64,000 bases of DNA from NCBI GenBank assembly GCA_020073485.1, contig JAIQFB010000003.1:1-64000 (forward strand), in the 5' to 3' direction. Positions 19,380 to 40,220 of this stretch are shown here, in pieces. Position numbers and translations under genes: made by a program. Under the pieces are notes generated by a model. That model was not told where the DNA came from. It did no database searches and worked only from the letters and a program-made list of their open reading frames with translations. Positions within the stretch are counted from its first letter, which is position 1. The number at the start of each line of letters is the position of its first letter. This DNA is from Terriglobia bacterium. GTDB lineage: Bacteria > Acidobacteriota > Terriglobia > Acidiferrales > UBA7541.

Positions 19380-19532
19380 CGGGGCGAACTTATTTTTGCG
19401 GCACCCGCGCCGCAAAACCCTCGTGACGCGTCGGGCATCCAATTACTGGCCTGGATTTACAGGTGAAAATCAGCCTTTCTTATGGCAAAATTTAGTGCCT
19501 CAAAAAATTTCTCACTCAACGGAGCCATCGGA

Positions 19533-19985
19533 ATGATGGGACGAAATAAGGGAACTTCGCTACGGATTGCTCGCACGTTCGGAATCTTCGCGGTTTTTGC
19601 AGGCCTGGCATTGGCCGGAGGGCGCGTCGCGGCCGATGACGCCCCGAAACCCTGGGTCGCTCCCGATGACGCACGGAAGGTGAAAAACCCCATTCCCGCG
19701 ACGCCGGAAAATCTGGCTGCCGCCGAAACGCTGTTCATGGACAATTGCCAGCTTTGCCACGGCGAGAAGGGCATGGGAGACGGCCCCGGCGCCAAGACCA
19801 TCAAGGTGAAACCCGCGAACTTCACCGACAAGCAGTTGATGAGCACCGAGACCGACGGCTCGCTGTTCTGGAAAATGTCCACTGGCCGTGGCCCCATGCC
19901 GCCCTGGAAGGACGATCTGACCGAGAAGGAACGCTGGCAGCTCGTCAACTACATTCGCAAACTGGGCAAAGACGCAGCGAAGTAA
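19533..19985 (+). CDS. periplasmic monoheme cytochrome c
   Basis: The 150-residue product has a signal peptide (RTFGIFAVFAGLALAGGRVA) and one heme-attachment motif CQLCH (C72, C75, H76), with a candidate axial Met in GPMPPW. This is the class I cytochrome c fold and is expected to carry electrons in the periplasm. ATG 19533 begins a double ATG (19533/19536) preceded by GGAGCC; the frame extends back to 19482. It stands alone between the metal transporter and the convergent peroxiredoxin gene. Confidence 0.87.
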   Translation: MMGRNKGTSLRIARTFGIFAVFAGLALAGGRVAADDAPKPWVAPDDARKVKNPIPATPENLAAAETLFMDNCQLCHGEKGMGDGPGAKTIKVKPANFTDKQLMSTETDGSLFWKMSTGRGPMPPWKDDLTEKERWQLVNYIRKLGKDAAK

Positions 19986-28577: not shown

Positions 28578-29076
28578 ATTTCCGTCAGTTGTTGCTTTGT
28601 TGTCTCTTCCATTGCGCATGTACTCGATGACCATCATTTGGCCGTCACGGAGAACGATCGTTCCCCTAGCCCCTTAGTGGCGCTCCCTGCCGTCCGTGGC
28701 GCGCGCCCGCAGCCGGCGCGAGATGCATTCGAATTCTTGCCCCCCAGATCGCGCACCACGCATCGCCTTCCTCTTGCCGTTGGGCCCTTCCAAAGGACCC
28801 GCGTCTCCTCGACGGCAATTCGATCTATGTAATTGATAAATTCGGCGAAGGTAATTGCAGTTTCTATCATGGAATGTGTCCATACCTGTACCAGAACGGG
28901 CCATCCGGACAGTTGGTGTGTCTAATTCGTAGTAATAGCCTCTAACGATCCTGGAATAGAAAGCCGATCAATTCAATGTCGCTTTTGGGGACGCCCAGTC
29001 CGAAATCGCAGGTATTTTTGCGCGCTTCGCGCATGGATCCAAACCACGCCGCTTCGCGCCACGTGATGGAGGAGTG
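28578..29076. other. intergenic region of about 500 bp
   Basis: No gene could be supported. A small minus-strand frame at 28634-28870 begins MIETAITFAEFINYIDRIA and has no recognisable homologue type. The sequence GATGGAGGAGTG just before 29077 is the ribosome site of the next gene. Confidence 0.5.
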
Positions 29077-30339
29077 ATGACTCACAAAAAACGCAACTTC
29101 CTGGCGGTAGTAAGCACGGCAACCCTGGCGCTGCTTGCGCTGGGCATGGTCATCAGCGCCGATACGATTCCGGAAGCCCCGGCGGGGTTCGATGGTTTGA
29201 CCAACGGCTTTGTGGCACAAAATGTAATGAACGATGCAATCGACGCGTTTAGCGAAGCAGAAACTCCTGACACGGGAGTGGGACCGACCTACAACGACGT
29301 CTCCTGCGTGAACTGCCATCAGAACCAGGCGGTTGGCGGCGCCGCGCAGGTGCTGGAATTGCGCGCGGGCCACTACGAAGGTGGCCGGCAGCATTGGACA
29401 CGGGATGCGCGCCACCGCTTCGATACCAACGGTTCGAGCGGCACATTTGTGGCGGCGACCGCCATCCTGGCCAATGGCACGCCTGTTCCCAATCGCTCCC
29501 TGATCAACCAGCGGGCCACATGCCGCGATGCGCAGGAGCACCTGACCGATGTGGATAACATCCGGGCCACGAGGCTCGCGCTTCCGCTTTTCGGCGATGG
29601 ATTCGTGGAGGCGGTGCCGGACGCAACGCTGCTGGCCATGGCGAAACAGAATGGCGGGGAAGCGATCGAGGTTCCCGTCGTTGAGCTCAACGGCATTACG
29701 GCCATCGGGCGATTTGGCTGGAAGGACCAGCACGCTTCTCTGCTTTCCTTTTCCGGCGACGCGTACATCAATGAGATGGGCTTCACCAACGCATTGTTCC
29801 CCGATGAGGCGGTGACCGGCGTTTGCACGGACCCGAATGCTCCCGAGCCCAACGACACGCAGGATGACGTCCACACCTTTGCCGTCTTCATGAGGTCGCT
29901 GAAGGTGCCGCCGCGCGGCACGATCACTCCGCAGGTCACCGCGGGGCAGGCGATCTTCGAGTCGCTCGGCTGCAATTCCTGCCACGTCGAAACGCTTGTG
30001 ACAGCCCCCTCCGGAACCTCCATTCTTGGCGGGTCGCTCATTGTCGGCGACGCCATCGGCGGAAAGCAGTTCCATCCGTTCGGCGATTTCCTGCTGCACA
30101 ACGTCGGCACCGGCGACGGCATCGTTCAGAACGGCCCGGACGACACCGCGCAGAAGGTTCGCACGATGCCGCTCTGGGGGCTCGGGACGCGCACGCAACT
30201 CATGCACGACGCGCAGTCGACGACTTACTCGGATGCCATCGAACGCCATCGCGGGGAAGCGGCCGACGAAGAGCGCAGATTTGAGCGGTTAACTCCCGCG
30301 CAAAAGAGCCTGCTGTATCAGTTCCTGGGCTCGCTATAG
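29077..30339 (+). CDS. di-heme oxidoreductase (DHOR, DUF1111 family)
   Basis: The 420-residue exported protein (signal LAVVSTATLALLALGMVISA) has two c-heme sites, CVNCH and CNSCH, and the family features RTMPLWGLGTRTQLMHD and EAADEERRFERLTPAQK. DHOR proteins are distant relatives of di-heme peroxidases and MauG and act in periplasmic electron transfer or thiol oxidation; the exact substrate is not known. GTG at 29074 precedes the ATG, both after GGAGGA. It lies immediately before the convergent oxidase operon, with 155 bases between the stop codons. Confidence 0.88.
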   Translation: MTHKKRNFLAVVSTATLALLALGMVISADTIPEAPAGFDGLTNGFVAQNVMNDAIDAFSEAETPDTGVGPTYNDVSCVNCHQNQAVGGAAQVLELRAGHYEGGRQHWTRDARHRFDTNGSSGTFVAATAILANGTPVPNRSLINQRATCRDAQEHLTDVDNIRATRLALPLFGDGFVEAVPDATLLAMAKQNGGEAIEVPVVELNGITAIGRFGWKDQHASLLSFSGDAYINEMGFTNALFPDEAVTGVCTDPNAPEPNDTQDDVHTFAVFMRSLKVPPRGTITPQVTAGQAIFESLGCNSCHVETLVTAPSGTSILGGSLIVGDAIGGKQFHPFGDFLLHNVGTGDGIVQNGPDDTAQKVRTMPLWGLGTRTQLMHDAQSTTYSDAIERHRGEAADEERRFERLTPAQKSLLYQFLGSL

Positions 30340-30494: not shown

Positions 30495-30686
30495 CTAGGA
30501 TTGCCGGCGGTAAAACCAGTAGCCCAGGCCGCCGATCAGCAGCAGCGGCAGGGCGCTCATAATGAGAGTCATTCCGAGGTAGGTGCTGGCCGTCTTGGGA
30601 TCGTTCACCATGCACGCGGGGCAGGACCAGCCCGCGGCGGGGATGAGGGAAAGCGCGGCGGCAGCGGCGATCGTTCGGATTCTCAT
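30495..30686 (-). CDS. small exported membrane protein at the end of the cox operon
   Basis: The 63-residue product has a signal-like start (MRIRTIAAAAALSLIPAAGW), a CPAC motif and a C-terminal membrane segment (LIMSALPLLLIGGLGYWFYR). Its ATG overlaps the TGA of the second subunit III gene as ATGA, so it is translationally coupled. A role as an accessory or assembly protein of the oxidase is inferred from position; the CxxC pair could bind copper or act as a thiol pair. Confidence 0.7.
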   Translation of the reverse strand: MRIRTIAAAAALSLIPAAGWSCPACMVNDPKTASTYLGMTLIMSALPLLLIGGLGYWFYRRQS

Positions 30687-31285
30687 AGATACACCCGCAA
30701 ATAAATCACGGGCCACACAACCACCACAAAATACCAAAAGATTTGCGTGGCCGCAAACCTGGACGGCACGAATTTCCCTGCGCGCATCATGACGTAAACC
30801 CAGGTCAGCGCGATAATCGCGGCGACGGCGTGCAGCGCATGCGCTCCCACGATGAGGTAGAAGAACGCGCCGTGGCTGCTAGACGTCATGGTCAGCCCTT
30901 CGCGCAGCAGCGCCACCCATTCCACGCCCTGCAGCGAGACAAACGCAATTCCGCAGGCGATCGCCGCGGCTATATACCGCAGCGCGCTTTCGCGGTCCGT
31001 GCGCATGCGGCGATTGCCGATCAACAGCAAAATCGCGCTCAGCAGCAAAATCGTCGTATTGATCGCGGTGCGCTCCACAGGCAAGCGCGGCTGGCCCGCG
31101 GGAGGCCACACGCCTCCGAGGACCGTGGCTTTGGCGATCGTGTGCGCGCTCATCAGGCCCGCGAAAAACATGATTTCCGTGGCCACAAAAATAATCATGC
31201 CCAGAACGGAATTGGGCACTCGCTTCGCGGAAGTCTTGGCGGCGAGCGCCACTCGCGAATCCGTGATGGATGTCTGACTGCTCAT
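30683..31285 (-). CDS. cytochrome c oxidase subunit III (second copy)
   Basis: This 200-residue polytopic membrane protein matches heme-copper oxidase subunit III, with LGMIIFVATEIMFFAGLMSA in the first helix and SSSHGAFFYLIVGAHALHAV later. Subunit III stabilises the oxidase and lies beside subunit I. The operon has another, divergent subunit III gene at 31641. Its start overlaps the subunit IV stop as ATGA (31282-31285). Confidence 0.87.
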   Translation of the reverse strand: MSSQTSITDSRVALAAKTSAKRVPNSVLGMIIFVATEIMFFAGLMSAHTIAKATVLGGVWPPAGQPRLPVERTAINTTILLLSAILLLIGNRRMRTDRESALRYIAAAIACGIAFVSLQGVEWVALLREGLTMTSSSHGAFFYLIVGAHALHAVAAIIALTWVYVMMRAGKFVPSRFAATQIFWYFVVVVWPVIYLRVYL

Positions 31286-31632
31286 TGTTTTGGCGCTGCC
31301 TTCATTCCCGTCTCGACAGTTTGCTTCGCCGCGTCATTGCTCCAGTGCAAGCCGTCATGCCTCATGACGTCGGGCGCCACTCCCGCGAACAGGATGACCA
31401 CGAAAGCGATCATCACTACCAGGAGATAAGGAACCCAGCGTTTTTCCACCGTCACGTGCATGAAATTCTTGGCCACAAGATACGCTTTCACAATCGCGAC
31501 GCCAAAAGCCGCGACCAGAATCACGCCGCGGATGCTGGAAAGCGAGCCCAACACGCTGACGATCAGCAGCGCGACAAGGATCGCCCAGATCTTGACGTAA
31601 TTGGGATGGTGGACGTGGGATTCGGTAGTCAT
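31282..31632 (-). CDS. cytochrome c oxidase subunit IV (prokaryotic type)
   Basis: The 116-residue protein has three predicted membrane helices (VKIWAILVALLIVSVLGSL, GVILVAAFGVAIVKAYLVA and YLLVVMIAFVVILFAGVA) and the KAYLVAKNFMHV segment typical of the prokaryotic COX4 family. It is an accessory subunit of the oxidase. The ATG at 31632 starts 8 bases after the stop of the first subunit III gene; its own stop overlaps the next start. Confidence 0.85.
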   Translation of the reverse strand: MTTESHVHHPNYVKIWAILVALLIVSVLGSLSSIRGVILVAAFGVAIVKAYLVAKNFMHVTVEKRWVPYLLVVMIAFVVILFAGVAPDVMRHDGLHWSNDAAKQTVETGMKAAPKQ

Positions 31633-31640
31633 AGTCTCTC

Positions 31641-32222
31641 TCACCGCGCGATGTACAGCAGCGGGAACAGAAAAATCCAAACGATATCGACAAAGTGCCA
31701 GTACAGTCCGATGCACTCCACGCGCTGCAACTCCCGGTTTTTCGCTGCGTCCGAGGCCACGATCAGCATGATCACCGCTCCGGCCAGCACGTGCAGGCCG
31801 TGCAGCCCGGCCAGCGTGTAGTAGTAAGACCAGAAGCCGCCGGAGGAAATCACGAACCCTTCACGAATATCGGTGGTCCATTCAAATCCCTTGACCGTCA
31901 GGAAGATCACTCCGCCCAGAGCTGTCAGGCGCAGCAATCGCGCGGCGCGAGGCCCGTCCAGGGCGTCCGCCGCTTTATGCGCCAGCACGGCGCACAAACT
32001 CGAAGTGAGGAGCACGAAAGTATTGAACGCGCCAGCCCAGGTGTTGGTGTGCGAAGCCGAGGCCGCCCATTCCGGGTGACCTAAGCGATGCATGAGATAA
32101 GCGGCCAGCAACCCGCCGAAGATCACGATTTCCGAGGCGATCACCCACCAGGTAATCAGGCGCGCGGTGGGAATGCCCGTGACGCTGCGTGTATTGGCAA
32201 TGGGTTTGGCGGTGGCGCTCAT
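31641..32222 (-). CDS. cytochrome c oxidase subunit III (first copy)
   Basis: The 193-residue protein has five predicted helices and matches heme-copper oxidase subunit III, with ITWWVIASEIVIFGGLLAAY and YYTLAGLHGLHVLAGAVIML. The last part, VECIGLYWHFVDIVWIFLFP, is the characteristic C-terminal WHFVDxVW stretch. It starts 22 bases after the subunit I stop. The presence of two short subunit III proteins, which may form a heterodimer-like arrangement, is common in this kind of operon. Confidence 0.88.
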   Translation of the reverse strand: MSATAKPIANTRSVTGIPTARLITWWVIASEIVIFGGLLAAYLMHRLGHPEWAASASHTNTWAGAFNTFVLLTSSLCAVLAHKAADALDGPRAARLLRLTALGGVIFLTVKGFEWTTDIREGFVISSGGFWSYYYTLAGLHGLHVLAGAVIMLIVASDAAKNRELQRVECIGLYWHFVDIVWIFLFPLLYIAR

Positions 32223-32244
32223 TGTCGTCGGTCTCTCCGCGGGC

Positions 32245-33936
32245 CTAATTGGGCGCGTTCTGGGGCCAGTAGTCGTCGGCGCGGCCCGGCAGTCCGTACT
32301 CGTAGGGACCCCGGTACACGGTGGGCAACTCTGCAAAATTGCCGTGCGGCGGCGGCGAGGGCACGGTCCATTCCAGCGTGGTGGACCTCCACGGATTGGC
32401 CTCGGCGCGCTTGCCGTTGCGCATGCTCCAGAAGAAATTGAAAATGAAAATCAATTGGAACGACAGCATGACTAGCAGCCCGATCGTGGACGTGGTCCGC
32501 AAATGTTGCAGCGCCGGCCGCGACTGCTCGGCAAACTGCGCGTAGCTGTAAATGCGGCGCTGGTCGCCGGCCATGCCGGTCATGAACAGCGGGATGAAAA
32601 TCACGTTGAAGGGGATCACCGTGCCCCAGAAGTGAATCTTTCCCAGAGTTTCGTTCATCATGCGGCCGAACATTTTGGGATACCAGAAAGTGATGCCAGC
32701 AAAGACGGAAATGATAGCAATGGGCACGAACGTGTAATGAAAATGCGCGATCAGGAAATACGTGTCGTGCAGGTAGATGTCCGTGCCGGAAGAGCCAAGA
32801 AAAATTCCGGTCACGCCGCCGATCAGAAATTCCGCCAGGAACCCCAGCGCCCAGAGCATGGGCGTATCGAGGCGGATCGAACCGCCGTAGAGCGTGGCGA
32901 TATACAGAAACACCAATTCGGCGACGGGGATCGAAATGAGCAGCGTGGTGACCGTGAATACGTTGGCCATGCGCGGATCGATTCCGGCGACAAACTGATG
33001 GTGCGCCCAGACCACAAAGCTCAGGATGCCGACTCCCCAGGTTGAATACAGCATCGATTTGTAGCCGAACAATTTCTTGCGCGCGAACACCGCAATGATT
33101 TCGGCCACGATGCCCATCGCTGGCAACAGCACGACGTACACTTCCGGATGGCCGAAAAACCAGAACAGGTGTTGCCACAGCAACGGATCGCCGCCGCGCA
33201 CCGGATCGTAAAATCCGGTGGCCATGGTTTGATCGAACAGCAGCATGACCGCGCCGGCTATCAACGGCCCTGCCGAAGCCATGAAAATCACCGTGGCCAG
33301 CACGATCATCCAGATCAGGATGGGGATGTCGAACATCTTCATTCCCGGAGCGCGGCTGTTCATGACCGTCACGGTGAAGTTGATGCCGCCCAGCAGGAAC
33401 GCCACAAATTCCAGCGCCACCGCCAGCAGCCAGAGCGTGGCACCGATCGGCGTCAAGTTGTAAGCGCCGCTAGCGGAGAGCGGAGGATATGCCGTCCAGG
33501 CGCCGCCGAACGCGCCGCCCTTCACCAGAAACGATCCCAGCAGCACGATGGCGCTCAGCAGAAAAATCTGATACGAGAGGCGATTAATTCGCGGAAACGC
33601 CATGTCGTCGCAACCGATCATCAGCGGGATCAAATAATTTCCGAAGGCCGCGATGAGCACCGGCATGGCCACCCAGAAAATCATGATGGTGCCGTGCATG
33701 GTGACCACTTCGTTGTATCTTCCCGGCGTCACCAAGCCGAACCCCGGCACATAGTGGTTCGGAAATCCTTGCTGCATGCGGAACACATAGGCCAGAAAGC
33801 CGCCAATCATGGCCATGGCCATGCCGGTGAACAAATACTGCATGGCAATCATTTTGTGGTCGGTGGACCAGCAATATTTCAGAAAAAATCCTGGTTCGGG
33901 GTGATCGTGTCCCGCGTGCTGAACCTGCTCGCTCAT
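32245..33936 (-). CDS. cytochrome c oxidase subunit I (heme-copper, A-type)
   Basis: The 563-residue catalytic subunit has 12 or more membrane helices. It carries the cross-linked His-Tyr and gate Glu in FFGHPEVYVVLLPAMG, the CuB pair in VVWAHHQFVAG, and the heme ligands in HDTYFLIAHFHYTFVP. The D-channel Asp is present in MIGCDDMAFPRINRLS. At the K-channel position, where A-type enzymes read PTGVKVF or PTGIKVF, this protein reads PVAELVF, so the usual Lys is replaced. It reduces O2 to water and pumps protons. The ATG at 33936 overlaps the subunit II stop (33933). Confidence 0.95.
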   Translation of the reverse strand: MSEQVQHAGHDHPEPGFFLKYCWSTDHKMIAMQYLFTGMAMAMIGGFLAYVFRMQQGFPNHYVPGFGLVTPGRYNEVVTMHGTIMIFWVAMPVLIAAFGNYLIPLMIGCDDMAFPRINRLSYQIFLLSAIVLLGSFLVKGGAFGGAWTAYPPLSASGAYNLTPIGATLWLLAVALEFVAFLLGGINFTVTVMNSRAPGMKMFDIPILIWMIVLATVIFMASAGPLIAGAVMLLFDQTMATGFYDPVRGGDPLLWQHLFWFFGHPEVYVVLLPAMGIVAEIIAVFARKKLFGYKSMLYSTWGVGILSFVVWAHHQFVAGIDPRMANVFTVTTLLISIPVAELVFLYIATLYGGSIRLDTPMLWALGFLAEFLIGGVTGIFLGSSGTDIYLHDTYFLIAHFHYTFVPIAIISVFAGITFWYPKMFGRMMNETLGKIHFWGTVIPFNVIFIPLFMTGMAGDQRRIYSYAQFAEQSRPALQHLRTTSTIGLLVMLSFQLIFIFNFFWSMRNGKRAEANPWRSTTLEWTVPSPPPHGNFAELPTVYRGPYEYGLPGRADDYWPQNAPN

Positions 33937-34670
33937 CGCCGCACCTCCGCCATCGTGGTGCTCTCGGGCGCGGGTGCCGGGGCCGCCGGCTGTGCGGCCA
34001 GCGACGGATTCGAGTTGCGCATCAGCCACGCGGCATGGTCCTGCTGAGTTTCGACGATCACGCGTCCGGCCATCAACGCGTGGCCGAGTCCGCACATCTG
34101 CGTGCATTGAATGTCATAGGTTCCCACGCGGTTCGGTCGAAACCAGCCCGTGATGGTGCGGCCGGGCAGGGCGTCCTGCTTCAGCCGGAACGATGGAATG
34201 GCGAAGCTGTGCACCACGTCGCGCGACATCAGCTCAAAATGGTACGTCGTATTCACAGTCACGTGCAGTTCGCCCACGGTGCGGACATCATCGTCCGTGT
34301 CCAGTTTTCCGTCTGGGCCGGGCTCCTGGAAACTCCAGGCCCACTGCTGCGCATATACGCGCACGGTTCGGTCCGCAGGCGGCTGCGCCTGCTTGATGTT
34401 GTACCAGACGAGGATGGCCGGAACGATGATGACGATGTCGCACAGGATCACCAGCATATGTGGAATCGTGATCCACCTGTGCAGCTCTTTTTCCTCTCCG
34501 GTAATGTATCGCGTCGACTGGCCTTCCTTCTCGCGAAACTTGAAGACCAGCGCAAAAAGGACCACTTCCGCGACGATCAGCCAGAATCCGACCAGCGCGG
34601 CGATCAGCAGGAATAAATGATCGATGCTATGCGCGTACGTGGAAGCTGCTGTGATATAGCGCTCATACAT
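33933..34670 (-). CDS. cytochrome c oxidase subunit II
   Basis: The 245-residue protein has two N-terminal helices (IDHLFLLIAALVGFWLIVAE and ILCDIVIIVPAILVWYNI) and a periplasmic cupredoxin domain with the CuA ligands H in VVHSFAIPSFRLK and CTQMCGLGHALM. In CTQMC, Gln replaces the Glu of the usual CxExC; this residue binds through the main chain, so function is probably kept. It accepts electrons from a cytochrome c. The ATG at 34670 comes 11 bases after the 35-residue gene; an in-frame ATG at 34700 would overlap it. The stop overlaps the subunit I start. Confidence 0.92.
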   Translation of the reverse strand: MYERYITAASTYAHSIDHLFLLIAALVGFWLIVAEVVLFALVFKFREKEGQSTRYITGEEKELHRWITIPHMLVILCDIVIIVPAILVWYNIKQAQPPADRTVRVYAQQWAWSFQEPGPDGKLDTDDDVRTVGELHVTVNTTYHFELMSRDVVHSFAIPSFRLKQDALPGRTITGWFRPNRVGTYDIQCTQMCGLGHALMAGRVIVETQQDHAAWLMRNSNPSLAAQPAAPAPAPESTTMAEVRR

Positions 34671-34681
34671 GACGGCTTCGG

Positions 34682-34789
34682 TTACCTCACCAAAATCCAT
34701 GCCGCGGCGACAAAAGCTACGGCGGAGAACATCACAATCCAAAAAACCTTTTTGGCCATCTGATCCGCGGGCGAATTGGCTTGTTCCAT
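34682..34789 (-). CDS. 35-residue single-span membrane peptide in the cox operon
   Basis: This short frame, MEQANSPADQMAKKVFWIVM followed by FSAVAFVAAAWILVR, has a polar N-terminus and one membrane helix (about residues 14-33). TTAAGGAC is 4 bases upstream of its ATG, and it ends 11 bases before subunit II. It is similar in design to the small subunits that stabilise heme-copper oxidases, although I recognise no named family. The tight placement between a cytochrome c and coxB strongly supports translation. Confidence 0.7.
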   Translation of the reverse strand: MEQANSPADQMAKKVFWIVMFSAVAFVAAAWILVR

Positions 34790-34818
34790 GTCCTTAAATA
34801 GTCTCCGGGCGCGCCAGC

Positions 34819-35484
34819 CTATGGTTTGAGCGTATCGAGGTACGCCATTACATTCCGGATCGCGTCTTCATCGGTCAGAATTCGCGCCATGGGGCGCATC
34901 AACCGGCCTTCGATATCCTTGGAATTATTGCCGCGAATCCCAGCCTTGAATTTTCTCAGCTGCGTGGCCAGATACCAGTCATCCACTCCAGCCAGACGAG
35001 GAGCCTTAACGTCGGCATTGCCCTCGCCGTTTGTTCCGTGGCAGGAGGCGCATACGAGATGGAATTGATTATCCCCCGCATGAGCATCGCCCGTAAGCGT
35101 GGGCGCATGTTTTACCGGAGGCAGCGTTTCCACATACGCGGACACGGCTGTCACGTCGCCATCCGTGATGAGGCTCAACGCCATCGGCCTCATGCGCATG
35201 CCTTCCACATCGCTAAAGTGCATGCCGCGCGTGCCGGCTCGGAATTTTTGGAGTTGCGCTTGCACATACCAGGCTTTCATCCCGGCGATATTCGGCGCCC
35301 CAACCTGTGGATTGCCTGATCCATCCACCTGGTGGCACGGCACGCAGTTTTGAAAAAGTTGCTGACCGCGCATCGCGGCGCTGGTCGAGCCCAGACCGCA
35401 TCCCGAAAGGCCCCACCCAAAAAGGATGAGAAACGAAGTCCACAAAGCGATTTGGCGGGGAGCGAGTTTTTTATATTCGCGCAT
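34819..35484 (-). CDS. diheme cytochrome c lipoprotein (c4-like)
   Basis: The 221-residue protein has a lipoprotein signal (LFGWGLSGCGLG, lipobox Cys) and two c-type heme sites, CVPCH and CASCH, each followed by a similar domain, including RGMHFSDVEGMRMRPMALSL and RGNNSKDIEGRLMRPMARIL. This internal duplication is like cytochrome c4. Anchored in the inner membrane, it should deliver electrons to subunit II, whose gene follows. The ATG at 35484 was chosen for the lipobox. The operon order c4-like, small peptide, coxB, coxA resembles the iron-oxidation rus operon in outline only. Confidence 0.9.
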   Translation of the reverse strand: MREYKKLAPRQIALWTSFLILFGWGLSGCGLGSTSAAMRGQQLFQNCVPCHQVDGSGNPQVGAPNIAGMKAWYVQAQLQKFRAGTRGMHFSDVEGMRMRPMALSLITDGDVTAVSAYVETLPPVKHAPTLTGDAHAGDNQFHLVCASCHGTNGEGNADVKAPRLAGVDDWYLATQLRKFKAGIRGNNSKDIEGRLMRPMARILTDEDAIRNVMAYLDTLKP

Positions 35485-35719
35485 GTTCAATCGTAGAAGG
35501 TGTGTGAAGTTGCGGATGTTACCAGCGCGCAAAAACGAACACAAGCTGAACTTACGTTCCAGCGCGAATTAACAGGGGGTTAAATTTTGGGAGTAACTGT
35601 ACTAATTCCCATATTGGAATTGGGCGTGGCAACGCTCGCCGATGGGGTCATCATTGATGACACTACCTTCATCGGGGTAGCGTCACGGAGGCGAGTATTG
35701 CAAGGGTGGAGGAGTGTCA

Positions 35720-35778: not shown

Positions 35779-37539
35779 CTATTGGGAGCCCGCGGGTACG
35801 TGCTGGAGCCGCTCGCCGAGGCGCCGGTGCTCGTCGCGAATTTCGTCGGGCAGGCGATCGCCGAATTCCTGGAGGAATCGCGCGACGTCTGCGTGCTCCT
35901 TCGTCCATGCGGCGGGATCCACACTGAGCAGTTCCTGCATGGTTTTGCGTGTGACGTTGATCCCGTCGAGAGTCAACGCATCGGGCGTGGGCACAATGCC
36001 GATGGGGGTTTCGGTGGCCGCGGCCTTTCCTTCGATTCTTTCCAGCATCCACTTCAGCACGCGGACATTGTCGCCGTAGCCGGGCCAGAGAAATTTTCCG
36101 TCATCGCCTTTACGGAACCAGTTCACGTGGAAAATCTTGGGCGGGTGGGGAATATTGCGGCCCATTTCCAGCCAGTGTCCGAAATAATCGGCCATGTTGT
36201 AGCCGCAGAAGGGAAGCATGGCCATGGGGTCGCGCCGCGTGACTCCCACGGCGCCGGTAATGGCCGCGGTGGTTTCCGAAGCCATGGTCGCGGCCACATA
36301 CACACCGTGCTGCCAGTTGGTGGCTTCGTAGACCAGCGGAGCCAGGCGGGCGCGGCGGCCTCCGAAAATAAACGCGGAAATCGGAACGCCTCCCGGATCC
36401 TCCCAGCGGGGAGAGATCGATGGCGATTGAACGGCCGGCACCGTATACCTGGAATTCGCCTGCGCCGCGGGGCCCTTGGAGGAATCCCACTGCCGTCCCT
36501 GCCAGTCCAGCAGGTCGGTAGGCGGATTGCCGTCCATTCCCTCCCACCAGGGTTCCTGCCGCGAGGTCATGGCCGTATTCGTGAAAATGGAATTCTTGCG
36601 AATTGCGGTCATTACATTCGGATTCGTTTTTTCGTTCGTACCCGGCGCGACGCCGAAAAATCCGGCTTCCGGATTGATGGCGTGCAGGTAGCCATCCGGG
36701 CCGACTTGCAGCCAGGCGATGTCGTCGCCAATGGTCCACACCCGATAGCCTTCGTTTTCCAGCGCCGAAACCATCATGGCCAGATTGGTCTTCCCGCAGG
36801 CGCTGGGGAACGCAGCCGCCATGTAGGTCACTTTTCCGCCGGGCGATTCGAGGCCCAGGATCAGCATGTGCTCGGCCATCCAGCCCTGCTCGCGCGCCAT
36901 CCAGCTGGCAATTCGCAGCGCGAAACATTTTTTCCCCAGCAGCGCGTTTCCGCCATATCCCGAGCCAATGCTCCAGATCAAATTTTCCTCGGGGAAGTGC
37001 GCGATGTAGCGGCGGTCCGGATGCAGATCGCCCAGTGAATGCAGGCCGGGAACAAAATCGGAGGAACTGCCTAGGCGGTCCAGCGCCACTTTGCCCATGC
37101 GGGACATGATTTTCATGCTGGAGACCACGTACGCGCTGTCGGTCACTTCGACGCCGATGCGGCTCTGCGGCGAAGCCGCCGGACCCAGGATGTAGGGCAC
37201 CACGTACATGGTGCGGTCCTTCATCGACCCATCGAACAAACGGCTCAGCGTCTGCTTGGCTTCCGCGGGCGCCATCCAGTTATTGGTGGGGCCGGCATTT
37301 TCGCGGTCGTGCGTACAGATAAAAGTGACTTTTTCGGTGCGCGCTACGTCGGTGGGGTCGCTGCGATGCAGGTAGCAATTCGGGTAGGTTTTATCGTTCA
37401 GGCGAACCGTCTGGCCCTCGCGTATCAATTGTTCCTGCATGCGGGCCGCTTCGTCCTCTGAGCCGTCGCACCACGTAATCTTTGCGGGGCGCGTCAAGCG
37501 GGCAACGGATTCCACCCATTGTTCCAGGGGCGTGGACAC
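35779..37539 (-). CDS. pckG: GTP-dependent phosphoenolpyruvate carboxykinase
   Basis: The 586-residue enzyme matches GTP-type PEPCK over its full length: the P-loop kinase-1a motif AAFPSACGKTN, the metal-binding and kinase-2 region RVWTIGDDIAW, and the active-site stretch GYGGNALLGKKCFALRIAS. It converts oxaloacetate and GTP to PEP, CO2 and GDP, the entry to gluconeogenesis. The GTG at 37539 is preferred because AGGAGG lies 5 bases upstream and the protein start (STPLEQWVESV) fits the family. It lies between the cox operon and a cytochrome c pair on the other strand. Confidence 0.95.
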   Translation of the reverse strand: MSTPLEQWVESVARLTRPAKITWCDGSEDEAARMQEQLIREGQTVRLNDKTYPNCYLHRSDPTDVARTEKVTFICTHDRENAGPTNNWMAPAEAKQTLSRLFDGSMKDRTMYVVPYILGPAASPQSRIGVEVTDSAYVVSSMKIMSRMGKVALDRLGSSSDFVPGLHSLGDLHPDRRYIAHFPEENLIWSIGSGYGGNALLGKKCFALRIASWMAREQGWMAEHMLILGLESPGGKVTYMAAAFPSACGKTNLAMMVSALENEGYRVWTIGDDIAWLQVGPDGYLHAINPEAGFFGVAPGTNEKTNPNVMTAIRKNSIFTNTAMTSRQEPWWEGMDGNPPTDLLDWQGRQWDSSKGPAAQANSRYTVPAVQSPSISPRWEDPGGVPISAFIFGGRRARLAPLVYEATNWQHGVYVAATMASETTAAITGAVGVTRRDPMAMLPFCGYNMADYFGHWLEMGRNIPHPPKIFHVNWFRKGDDGKFLWPGYGDNVRVLKWMLERIEGKAAATETPIGIVPTPDALTLDGINVTRKTMQELLSVDPAAWTKEHADVARFLQEFGDRLPDEIRDEHRRLGERLQHVPAGSQ

Positions 37540-38053
37540 GAAACCTCCTCCAATGATTTTTTCGCTATGCCGGCGGGGACTCAGGGATGGGAAGACCCTG
37601 CGAAACGCGTCTGGCACCAAATAAGTTCCTAAAATTAAAGTTTAGGTCAGGGCTGAGTCAAACGCAAGACGCTGGCAAAATTATTTGTCGGAGAATATCA
37701 CCCCGTGTTGCTTACGTCACACGAGCCGCGATGGGTAAAGCGTTCACCATGAAAGTCCGATAAGTAATGATACAGGCACGGAACGCGCGATTTGCGTTCC
37801 CTTGTTGCCAGGATATGGCATGCGCCGTGGGGGCATAAGTTCAGGGCGCGCCGGAACTTGCGGGAAAGGGATTCGCTTGCCGGAAGATTTGGTTCGAGAA
37901 CCCGGTCACAAGTTCCGTCTGGCGGCCTGAGATCCATTGTGACGCCCATCACAGACGTCCGTGCGTGTCGTCACAGATCATGAATGAGTCGTTGTGGCAC
38001 GCTTTGTTTGAAGGTAATTTGATCTGCATTCTCCATAATCCTTCGGAGGGAAG
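37540..38053. other. intergenic region of about 510 bp with a CRP-like site
   Basis: This divergent region between pckG and the cytochrome c gene holds no supported gene. It should contain both promoters. The CRP-like palindrome at 37938-37953 is the only clear motif; no -35/-10 pair could be fixed. Confidence 0.6.
37938..37953. promoter_or_regulatory. CRP/FNR-family operator candidate (TGTGA-N6-TCACA)
   Basis: TGTGACGCCCATCACA is a perfect match to the TGTGA-N6-TCACA consensus of CRP-family regulators. A second half-site, GTCACA, follows 20 bases later. It lies about 100 bases before the cytochrome c gene at 38054 and 400 bases before pckG in the divergent direction, so it may regulate one or both. 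The regulator was not seen in the window, and chance occurrence is possible. Confidence 0.55.
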
Positions 38054-38431
38054 ATGCTAGCGAGAATTATTAGGAAATACAAAATCGGGGCCATGGCCGT
38101 TCTTCCGCTGTTCCTGTTCGTCTTTGTCCACTCCGCCGCGGCTCAGGCGGGCAAGGCCGAGGAAGGGCAGAAGCTGTTCGATACCAATTGTGCCAAGTGC
38201 CACGGGCCCGATGGAAGTGGGGATACGGCCATCGGCAAAGCCGTCGGAGCCAAGGACCTGCGCTCCGCCGAGGCCTTAAAGCTTACCGACGCTCAAATCT
38301 TCACGCAAATCGATCAGGGAAAAAACAACATGCCTCCGTTTGGCGGCACGCTGGACAAGGCGAAGATCGAAGATCTGGTCGCCTATGTCCGCGCGTTGGG
38401 GAAGAAAAAAGCCCCTGCCAAAAAAGGATAA
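38054..38431 (+). CDS. small periplasmic monoheme cytochrome c
   Basis: The 125-residue protein has a signal peptide (AVLPLFLFVFVHSAAAQAGK) and a class I cytochrome c domain with CAKCH, then NMPPFGG with the axial Met. GGAGGG is 4 bases before its ATG. It is followed in the same direction by the Cyc2-like porin-cytochrome gene (about 180 bases later), so they may be expressed together. It could shuttle electrons between the outer membrane and the terminal oxidase, an inference from proximity. Confidence 0.9.
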   Translation: MLARIIRKYKIGAMAVLPLFLFVFVHSAAAQAGKAEEGQKLFDTNCAKCHGPDGSGDTAIGKAVGAKDLRSAEALKLTDAQIFTQIDQGKNNMPPFGGTLDKAKIEDLVAYVRALGKKKAPAKKG

Positions 38432-38614
38432 GTTCGGACCCTGAGGCCACTGCATTTTCGCCCATAGTTGTCATCATTGGGGTAGGGGACCCACAGCCAG
38501 GACGTAAGCAAGGACAGGACGCTGCGGGGCGTCCTGAAGAACGATCCTTGCGTTCCTGCGTCGGGGATGTGTCTTGAATCAGAACTTAGAGTGATCGAGA
38601 GAAAGGGAAAAAGC

Positions 38615-40000
38615 ATGAATACAGAAAAGCTTAATCTCCGTGGGACCGTAATTTTCTGCGCACTCTTCACGCTGTTCGTGAGCTTGTTCTTCCAGGTGCC
38701 GACTGCTTCCGCGATTCCGAGTTACGCGCGGCAGACCGGCTTCCCGTGCAAGTCCTGCCACATGACGCCGCCGGAACTGACCGCTCTTGGCCGGGCGTTC
38801 AAATTGAATGGCTACACCATGACCGGAAAGCCAACGGTGACCTCGAAGGGCTCGGGAAATCAAGGCGGGCTCAACTTATTGGAATCATTCCCGCTTTCAG
38901 TGTTGTTCGATACCGCGTTTACCTCGCTGAAGTCCCCGCAACCGGGCACCCAGAATGGCAGCTTTCAGTTTCCCGAGGACGCTTCGCTCTTTCTCGCCGG
39001 CGCATGGGCCACGCACGTTGGCAGCTTCATACAGGTGACCTACGACGCCCAGAGCGACCATTTCTCCTGGGACAATTCCGACGTCCGCTATGCCAACTCC
39101 ACAAAGCTTTTTGGCAAGGATATGACCTACGGAATCACGCTGAATAACAATCCGACGGTGCAAGACCTTTGGAACAGTACCCCGGCTTGGGGTTATCCCT
39201 GGGTAGGCAGCAACTGGGCTCCTACGCCCATGGCTGCATCCCTCATTGACGGCGGCTTGGCCATGGATGTGGGAGGGGTCGGCGCATATACCATGCTGGC
39301 GAATCACCTCTATTTGGAGGGAACGGTGTACCGTTCCATGCACATCGGGGCCGCTCAGCCATTTACTGGATTGGAAGCTACCAACACCATTCGGGGGGTT
39401 GCGCCGTATTGGCGTGTCGCCTGGCAGCAGACGATGAAAAACAATTACCTGGAAGTGGGAACCTACGGGATGCATACGAAGTTTACTCCGGGAACCGTAG
39501 GCATTACGCCGTCTAATTTTAGAGACTCCTACACGGACTGGGCCGTTGATTTTCAGGACGATATCACCATTCCCAAGCTTCACGGCGACATCCTCTCGCT
39601 CCGCGGGACATATATTCGGGAAAACTCCTCACTGGACTTGACGGGTTTCGAGAATGATAGTCTGGTGCCGCATCACCTCAACACCGTAAGGCTGAACGCG
39701 GAGTATCACTTCGGGGACCGAGTTTCGGCCACCATGGGCTGGTTCAATATCGATGGAACGACCGATCCGGTGGTCTTCGGGCCGGCCCCCATAATCGGCA
39801 GCGCCAATGGCGATCCCAAGAACGCCGGCTACATCGGGAACGTTTCCTGGTGGCCGGTTCAGAACATCAGCCTGACGTTCCAATACACGGGCTACACGCG
39901 GTTCAACGGCGGGTCCACCAGTTATGATGATCCTGGCGGTCTTGGCCGCAACGCAACGCAAAACAACACCATGTATCTGCTCGCGCGATTCGTTTTCTGA
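38615..40000 (+). CDS. Cyc2-like fused monoheme cytochrome-porin
   Basis: The 461-residue protein has a signal peptide (FCALFTLFVSLFFQVPTASA) and, at the mature N-terminus, IPSYARQTGFPCKSCH followed by LTALGRAFKLNGYTMTGK. This is the layout of Cyc2, the outer-membrane cytochrome of iron oxidisers, where one heme (C45xxCH49) plugs a beta-barrel. The remaining 400 residues are rich in alternating polar and aromatic strands and end in LLARFVF, the C-terminal Phe of outer-membrane barrels. GAAAGGGAAAAAGC precedes its ATG. Function in Fe(II) oxidation is not shown; many Cyc2-like homologues are uncharacterised. Confidence 0.78.
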   Translation: MNTEKLNLRGTVIFCALFTLFVSLFFQVPTASAIPSYARQTGFPCKSCHMTPPELTALGRAFKLNGYTMTGKPTVTSKGSGNQGGLNLLESFPLSVLFDTAFTSLKSPQPGTQNGSFQFPEDASLFLAGAWATHVGSFIQVTYDAQSDHFSWDNSDVRYANSTKLFGKDMTYGITLNNNPTVQDLWNSTPAWGYPWVGSNWAPTPMAASLIDGGLAMDVGGVGAYTMLANHLYLEGTVYRSMHIGAAQPFTGLEATNTIRGVAPYWRVAWQQTMKNNYLEVGTYGMHTKFTPGTVGITPSNFRDSYTDWAVDFQDDITIPKLHGDILSLRGTYIRENSSLDLTGFENDSLVPHHLNTVRLNAEYHFGDRVSATMGWFNIDGTTDPVVFGPAPIIGSANGDPKNAGYIGNVSWWPVQNISLTFQYTGYTRFNGGSTSYDDPGGLGRNATQNNTMYLLARFVF

Positions 40001-40050
40001 TCGTGCGGGAAGGTGACGTGCAGTTTTCCTGAGGGGCAACGAAATAAGGC

Positions 40051-40091
40051 GGCGGCGGGATCCGGTGAAGTGAATGCCGGATCCCGCCGCC
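40051..40091. terminator. strong hairpin after the Cyc2-like gene
   Basis: The arms GGCGGCGGGATCCGG (40051-40065) and CCGGATCCCGCCGCC (40077-40091) are perfectly complementary with an 11-base loop, followed by GTAATCTTTTC. It lies between two convergent genes (stop codons near 40000 and 40221) and may stop transcription from the left. Confidence 0.75.
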
Positions 40092-40220
40092 GTAATCTTT
40101 TCCCGCGCGCACAGATTCCGGACCAGGCGCCATGCCTTCCCTCGCGGAAAATATGGGATGCTCCACTGTTGAGGGTTGTACGGGCCTTCGTAGCACATCC
40201 TTCAGATTGCGCGGAAAATC

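Follow-up and report, generated by a model that had tools for sequence, protein, structure and literature searches.

The locus described here raises the question of whether a cytochrome-porin carrying a single heme could link a member of the Acidobacteriota to electrons outside its cell. Acidobacteriota rank among the most abundant bacteria of soils and, to our knowledge, are not usually regarded as iron oxidisers. The window, by which we mean the whole 64,000-nucleotide stretch of DNA that was analysed, comes from a Terriglobia bacterium, and an earlier note on its sequence had proposed that a Cyc2-like porin, together with nearby cytochrome and oxidase genes, may form an extracellular electron-uptake route.

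The porin gene, referred to as cyc2 herein (38615..40000, plus strand), was assigned as a Cyc2-type fused cytochrome-porin of 461 aa on the basis of its open reading frame, homology, motif and predicted fold. The protein can be divided into a signal peptide (approximately residues 1-32), a heme plug (approximately 33-67), a 16-strand barrel (94-460) and the C-terminal Phe461. Its mature part starts AIPSYARQTGFPCKSCHMTPPELTALGRAFKLNGYTM, its end reads YLLARFVF, and its sole CXXCH, C45-x-x-C48-H49, is N-terminal and lies within AIPSYARQTGFPCKSCHMTPPEL; the reading frame, heme motif and terminal Phe are present as the earlier note had described them. An in-frame ATG at 38567, upstream of the start at 38615, would give a protein of 477 aa, and the second of these two candidate starts has a purine-rich stretch upstream and a more usual signal peptide. 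Directly 3' of cyc2 is a terminator-like 19-bp stem (40049..40093, plus strand), identified by consensus match only, and a terminator scan of the region found such sites to be no commoner than in shuffles. An Rfam search of the window returned no RNA family, and the porin had no match by sequence in Pfam, NCBIfam or PDB.

A Cyc2 protein has been defined as a 16-strand porin of no fewer than 365 aa that has AXPXFAR[Q/K][T/Y] ahead of a single CXXCH and PXL behind it (Keffer 2021, PMC8406198). The window protein exceeds this minimum length, and its motif, AIPSYARQT, has all fixed positions of the published one except Tyr37, which is Phe in the motif. Among 96 relatives the variants PSFARQTG (41), PSYARQTG (27), PSYSRQTG (10) and PSFSRQTG (5) were found; since Phe and Tyr switch at this position, the letter does not separate families, and a strict application of the published filter would lose much of the Acidobacteriota clade, the window protein included. 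The PXL element is P53-E54-L55, four residues past the CXXCH, with P and L invariant in the 96 sequences, as is the CXXCH itself; the R/Q/T, PxL, GR and FK positions are nearly or fully so. In the same alignment no Met or second His is conserved as a second axial heme ligand, H49 being the sole conserved His. Asp residues 153, 156, 184, 308, 312, 384 and 438 in the barrel are nearly invariant and may guide cations.

Using tblastn, we found that the porin aligns with proteobacterial plasmid proteins at 31-38% identity over 70-100% of its length, from Caballeronia, Paraburkholderia, Methylocystis, Acidithiobacillus ferrooxidans, Acidiphilium, Polymorphobacter and Ideonella. The alignment holds 42 invariant columns, which are spread across both plug and barrel. 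A small c-type cytochrome lies near cyc2 in all six plasmid loci read, a HiPIP gene in one, and homologs of the diheme c4-like cytochrome described below adjoin proteobacterial plasmid cyc2 genes. An AlphaFold2 model built with 37 aligned sequences (pLDDT 76, pTM 0.76) has a signal helix, three short helices round the heme site and exactly 16 beta strands between residues 94 and 460, two three-residue elements being left uncounted. The best Foldseek and VIA-align matches of the model are 16-strand porins, namely OmpF/OmpC, OprB, OprO (4rjw) and OprP (2o4v), with Z of 21-22; OprO and OprP are the porins that Keffer et al. named for Cyc2 (PMC8406198). The structure prediction proposed as a check in the earlier note thus gave a modelled heme plug and 16-strand barrel, and not a fold lacking a barrel.

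These data support membership of the Cyc2 family, the homologs compared being proteobacterial plasmid proteins of no assigned cluster, and the description Cyc2-like is borne out by motif, full-length homology, length, single heme and barrel model. Likeness to the characterised A. ferrooxidans Cyc2, Mariprofundus Cyc2PV-1 and Leptospirillum Cyt572 is drawn from published features and the plasmid homologs: it comprises a signal peptide, a single N-terminal CXXCH, PXL, a length over 365 aa, a predicted 16-strand porin and full-length homology via the Cyc2-type plasmid proteins. The window protein differs in having Tyr for Phe in PXFAR[QK][TY], in belonging to an Acidobacteriota clade and in its gene partners. 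It also resembles the MtrB/PioB and MtoAB conduits in being a predicted outer-membrane barrel with heme, putatively for extracellular electron transfer, but it would be one polypeptide with one heme and 16 strands, whereas those conduits have 26 strands with a decaheme.

A contig search of genomes found at least 586 relatives of the porin. The best 80 of these are mostly from Acidobacteriota metagenome-assembled genomes, some of which have palsa or bog in their titles, together with the isolate Acidipila rosea; Bacteroidetes, Gammaproteobacteria and others follow, and none of the 80 is from a known iron oxidiser. These relatives agree with the earlier description of the organism as Acidobacteriota-like. 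In a quick tree with SH-aLRT support, no bootstrap and several long branches, the window protein groups with its genus (support 96) within a 34-row Acidobacteriota clade (support 100). The porin is present in four of five other genomes of the genus and is patchy across the family.

Next to the porin, and as the earlier note had it, is a gene for a soluble monoheme class I cytochrome c (38054..38431, plus strand; 125 aa with a signal peptide and one CXXCH), confirmed by a Cytochrome_CBB3 match at 2.5e-17. It is separated from cyc2 by 183 bp, and the order of the two is kept in the genus. The diheme lipoprotein cytochrome and oxidase genes reported to the left were found at 30683-35544 on the minus strand. 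The c4-like lipoprotein (34819..35544, minus) has a lipobox-like LSGC and two CXXCH motifs and is likely a periplasmic carrier to the oxidase. It is followed by coxB for oxidase subunit II (33933..34670, minus), coxA for heme-copper oxidase subunit I (32245..33939, minus; a strong COX1 match), coxC for subunit III (31641..32237, minus), coxD for prokaryotic subunit IV (31282..31650, minus) and a second coxC-like gene for a subunit III-like protein (30683..31285, minus). As CoxB carries the CuA-type motif CTQMCGLGH, a cytochrome c is expected to be the electron donor of the oxidase. Elsewhere in the window, a DHOR-family diheme protein with two CXXCH motifs is encoded at 29074-30339, divergent from the cox cluster, and a further monoheme cytochrome c at 19482-19985, away from the cox and cyc2 genes.

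This gene content recalls the Acidithiobacillus rus operon, cyc2-cyc1-cup-coxBACD-rus (PMC10654088), in that a 10-kb span holds cyc2, a gene for a c4-type diheme cytochrome and coxBACD. Unlike the rus operon, the window genes do not form one operon, and they encode a monoheme cytochrome c in addition; cyc2 lies on the plus strand and the oxidase genes on the minus strand, and a GTP-type PEPCK-like gene, named from sequence, stands between them (35779-37620, strand opposite cyc2), an arrangement that counts against the reading proposed below. No rusticyanin gene was recognised among the cyc2 neighbours in the window. Within the genus, the order cyc2-cytc-PEPCK-c4-coxB-coxA-coxC-coxD-coxC2 was found in three further loci (L150, L151 and L153), with patatin and fadB on the other flank of the cluster in L150 and L153. 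Between L150 and the window, cyc2 is 70% identical and the neighbouring genes 86-95%; the lower identity of cyc2 could reflect fast evolution or replacement of the porin. Homologs, kept gene order and the predicted 16-strand fold together argue that the cyc2 locus is not a chance occurrence.

We propose, at a probability of roughly 0.57, that the porin takes electrons from dissolved Fe(II) and hands them on to cytochromes of the periplasm and to the aa3 oxidase encoded nearby; the outer-membrane location, electron direction, donor and carrier order are all inferred. The porin would sit in the outer membrane, with the single c-type heme of its N-terminal plug in or under the 16-strand pore. Dissolved Fe(II) would enter the pore and give one electron to the plug heme, which would reduce periplasmic cytochromes, either the monoheme cytochrome c encoded upstream, the c4-like diheme lipoprotein or both. 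From one or both of these carriers electrons would reach the CuA-bearing aa3-type oxidase encoded by coxBACD.

In the wider clade, a Rieske/cytochrome b complex, an alternative complex III (ACIII) or a terminal oxidase was found within 9 kb in 53 of 64 named Acidobacteriota cyc2 loci, and where at least 5 kb was available on both sides, a bc complex, ACIII or cox genes lay near cyc2 in 28 of 32. By the same criteria, none of 20 stretches of 19.3 kb taken at arbitrary places in seven Acidobacteriota genomes had such genes; this control is small, and the 64 loci are related by descent, so that the counts are not independent. Two arrangements prevail, with a third group holding ACIII. The first, type A, is an eight-gene operon with cyc2 at one end, followed by genes for a cupredoxin-like protein, an FAD/4Fe-4S pyridine-nucleotide oxidoreductase (best NCBIfam match PRK12771, under its cut-off), a Rieske protein, cytochrome b N and C, an octaheme cytochrome of approximately 690 aa and a monoheme cytochrome c. 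At L034:1687-3657 and in its homologs, the PRK12771-like oxidoreductase is kept between the cupredoxin and the bc complex. In the second, type B, cyc2 is accompanied by genes for a Rieske protein and for a cytochrome b that carries four fused cytochrome c domains, with a homolog of the window's cytochrome c between cyc2 and the complex in L055, L059 and L075. In the third group (L073, L077, L078, L082 and L087), NrfD, ActD, molybdopterin subunits and a pentaheme cytochrome (ActA-D like) are encoded beside cyc2. These neighbourhoods support a predicted coupling of the porin to the respiratory chain, and their strong conservation agrees with the link that the earlier note had drawn. In the relatives, octaheme or tetraheme bc complexes or ACIII would replace the oxidase as the partner of the porin, probably for uphill quinone reduction and, in one operon type, that of NAD(P) too.

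Linkage to a bc complex would equally suit electron export and counts against the inward reading. Tyr37, the lack of a conserved second axial heme ligand and the failure to find RuBisCO also weigh against Fe(II) uptake, and cluster 3 is the Cyc2 cluster whose function Keffer et al. call most uncertain (PMC8406198). The main and serious rival to Fe(II) uptake, though we judge it unlikely, is that electrons leave the cell instead, from quinol by way of the bc-type complexes and the cytochrome-porin, to reduce Fe(III) complexes or humic quinones at low oxygen. In favour of export, the complexes in the operons of most relatives are linked to quinone and are not oxidases. Fe(III) reduction is known in Acidobacteria, for instance in Acidobacterium and Acidicapsa, and a role as terminal Fe(III) reductase has been suggested for Cyc2 of A. 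ferrooxidans (PMC8790237). Against this, what is conserved next to the porin in the window's genus is an oxidase that reduces oxygen, along with c4 and cytochrome c, which fits inward flow, and the three characterised Cyc2 proteins, which are diverse, are all Fe(II) oxidases (PMC8406198).

Uptake of electrons by the mechanism proposed for Fe(II), but with Mn(II), reduced humics, phenolics or the like as the soluble donor, appears less probable still. Cyc2 has been discussed for Mn(II) lithotrophy in Ca. Manganitrophaceae (PMC9040806), one relative (L117) is in a Melioribacter metagenome-assembled genome labelled MnB_16/Mn-Melioribacter, and several hosts are from humic peat and soil, but neither a residue or neighbour specific for such a donor nor direct evidence for one was found. 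That the protein is a substrate porin whose heme is structural, gating or sensing, without net electron transfer, we consider very improbable: the barrel does resemble ordinary trimeric porins and no distal heme ligand is conserved in the 96 sequences, but the plug motif is nearly invariant in that set and respiratory carriers neighbour the porin in most loci.

At 1e-20, octaheme matches were found in 125 of 396 Acidobacteriota genomes, a count that includes weaker matches to paralogs. We picked 17 octaheme loci because a full-length Cyc2-type protein had not been found there, and in 15 of them the head of the operon encodes a divergent protein, cytochrome-porin-like, in which P-x-[FW]-[AS]-R-[KQR]-Y precedes the CXXCH; in the remaining two the stretch stops at or near a contig edge ahead of the operon head. 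These FARKY/FARQY-type proteins (445-570 aa; L161-L170, L172-L175 and L177) resemble the window protein in their N-terminal CXXCH plug, PXL, long C-terminal part and operon position. They differ in forming a separate long-branch clade, set apart in the tree from the Acidobacteriota Cyc2-type clade, and in being alignable mainly over the first 60-160 residues. A cytochrome-porin-like gene is retained in the operon even as its type varies, an argument for both types exchanging electrons with the same partners. We tentatively suggest, at slightly less than even odds, that Acidobacteriota own a modular extracellular electron circuit in which an exchangeable Cyc2- or FARKY-type cytochrome-porin heads the operon of a quinone-linked complex, whether an octaheme bc complex with cupredoxin and FAD/4Fe-4S oxidoreductase, a tetraheme cytochrome b fusion or ACIII, with an aa3 oxidase instead in the window's genus.

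COX1 was matched strongly at three places in the host genome, the window's coxA being one. A search of the genome for MtrB/PioB gave one weak match of 20.1 bits versus a cut-off of 240.05. RuBisCO was not found in the genome, so the host is probably a heterotroph with iron as an auxiliary electron donor; a heterotrophic or mixotrophic host is likely. Contig C24 of the same genome (L135:4112-11050) carries a related bc cluster, unlinked to cyc2, in which a 1088-aa octaheme subunit is encoded together with a carboxypeptidase-regulatory-like lipoprotein. An octaheme bc operon linked to cyc2 in this genome was considered and dropped, as the C24 cluster has no fused cytochrome-porin in the stretch read.

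Cyc2 homologs were already known in many phyla, including organisms not known as iron oxidisers (Keffer 2021, PMC8406198), homologs of Cyc572 in Acidobacteria have been listed (PMC10654088), and a study of a humic bog found Cyc2-like genes to be common there (PMC6344600). The route that the earlier note called unrecognised is therefore not so with respect to the kind of protein; the description holds for the association of the porin with bc complexes or ACIII within Acidobacteriota, of which we found no account in openly licensed full texts, most matches being judged by title or abstract. What is new here is the Acidobacteriota clade and its gene partnerships.

Owing to Phe-to-Tyr and Ala-to-Ser changes, many Acidobacteriota homologs would escape the published motif filter, and linkage to a bc complex or ACIII provides a further line of evidence on Cyc2 homologs that are uncharacterised. 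In relatives across the phylum, cyc2 almost always adjoins respiratory-chain genes, which, as far as gene content can indicate, suggests a possible and widespread route by which soil Acidobacteriota might trade electrons with dissolved extracellular iron. The presence of a Cyc2-type porin near respiratory complexes in many members, and in the cultured carrier Acidipila rosea, makes this question testable, and it is the phylum-wide module of cytochrome-porin and respiratory complex, beyond the single window gene, that is worth following. If the modular circuit proposed above is real, quinone and NAD(P) reduction would be hard-wired to an outer-membrane entry point, and the phylum would be a large group of electron exchangers, linked to iron and for the most part heterotrophic, that has gone unrecognised.
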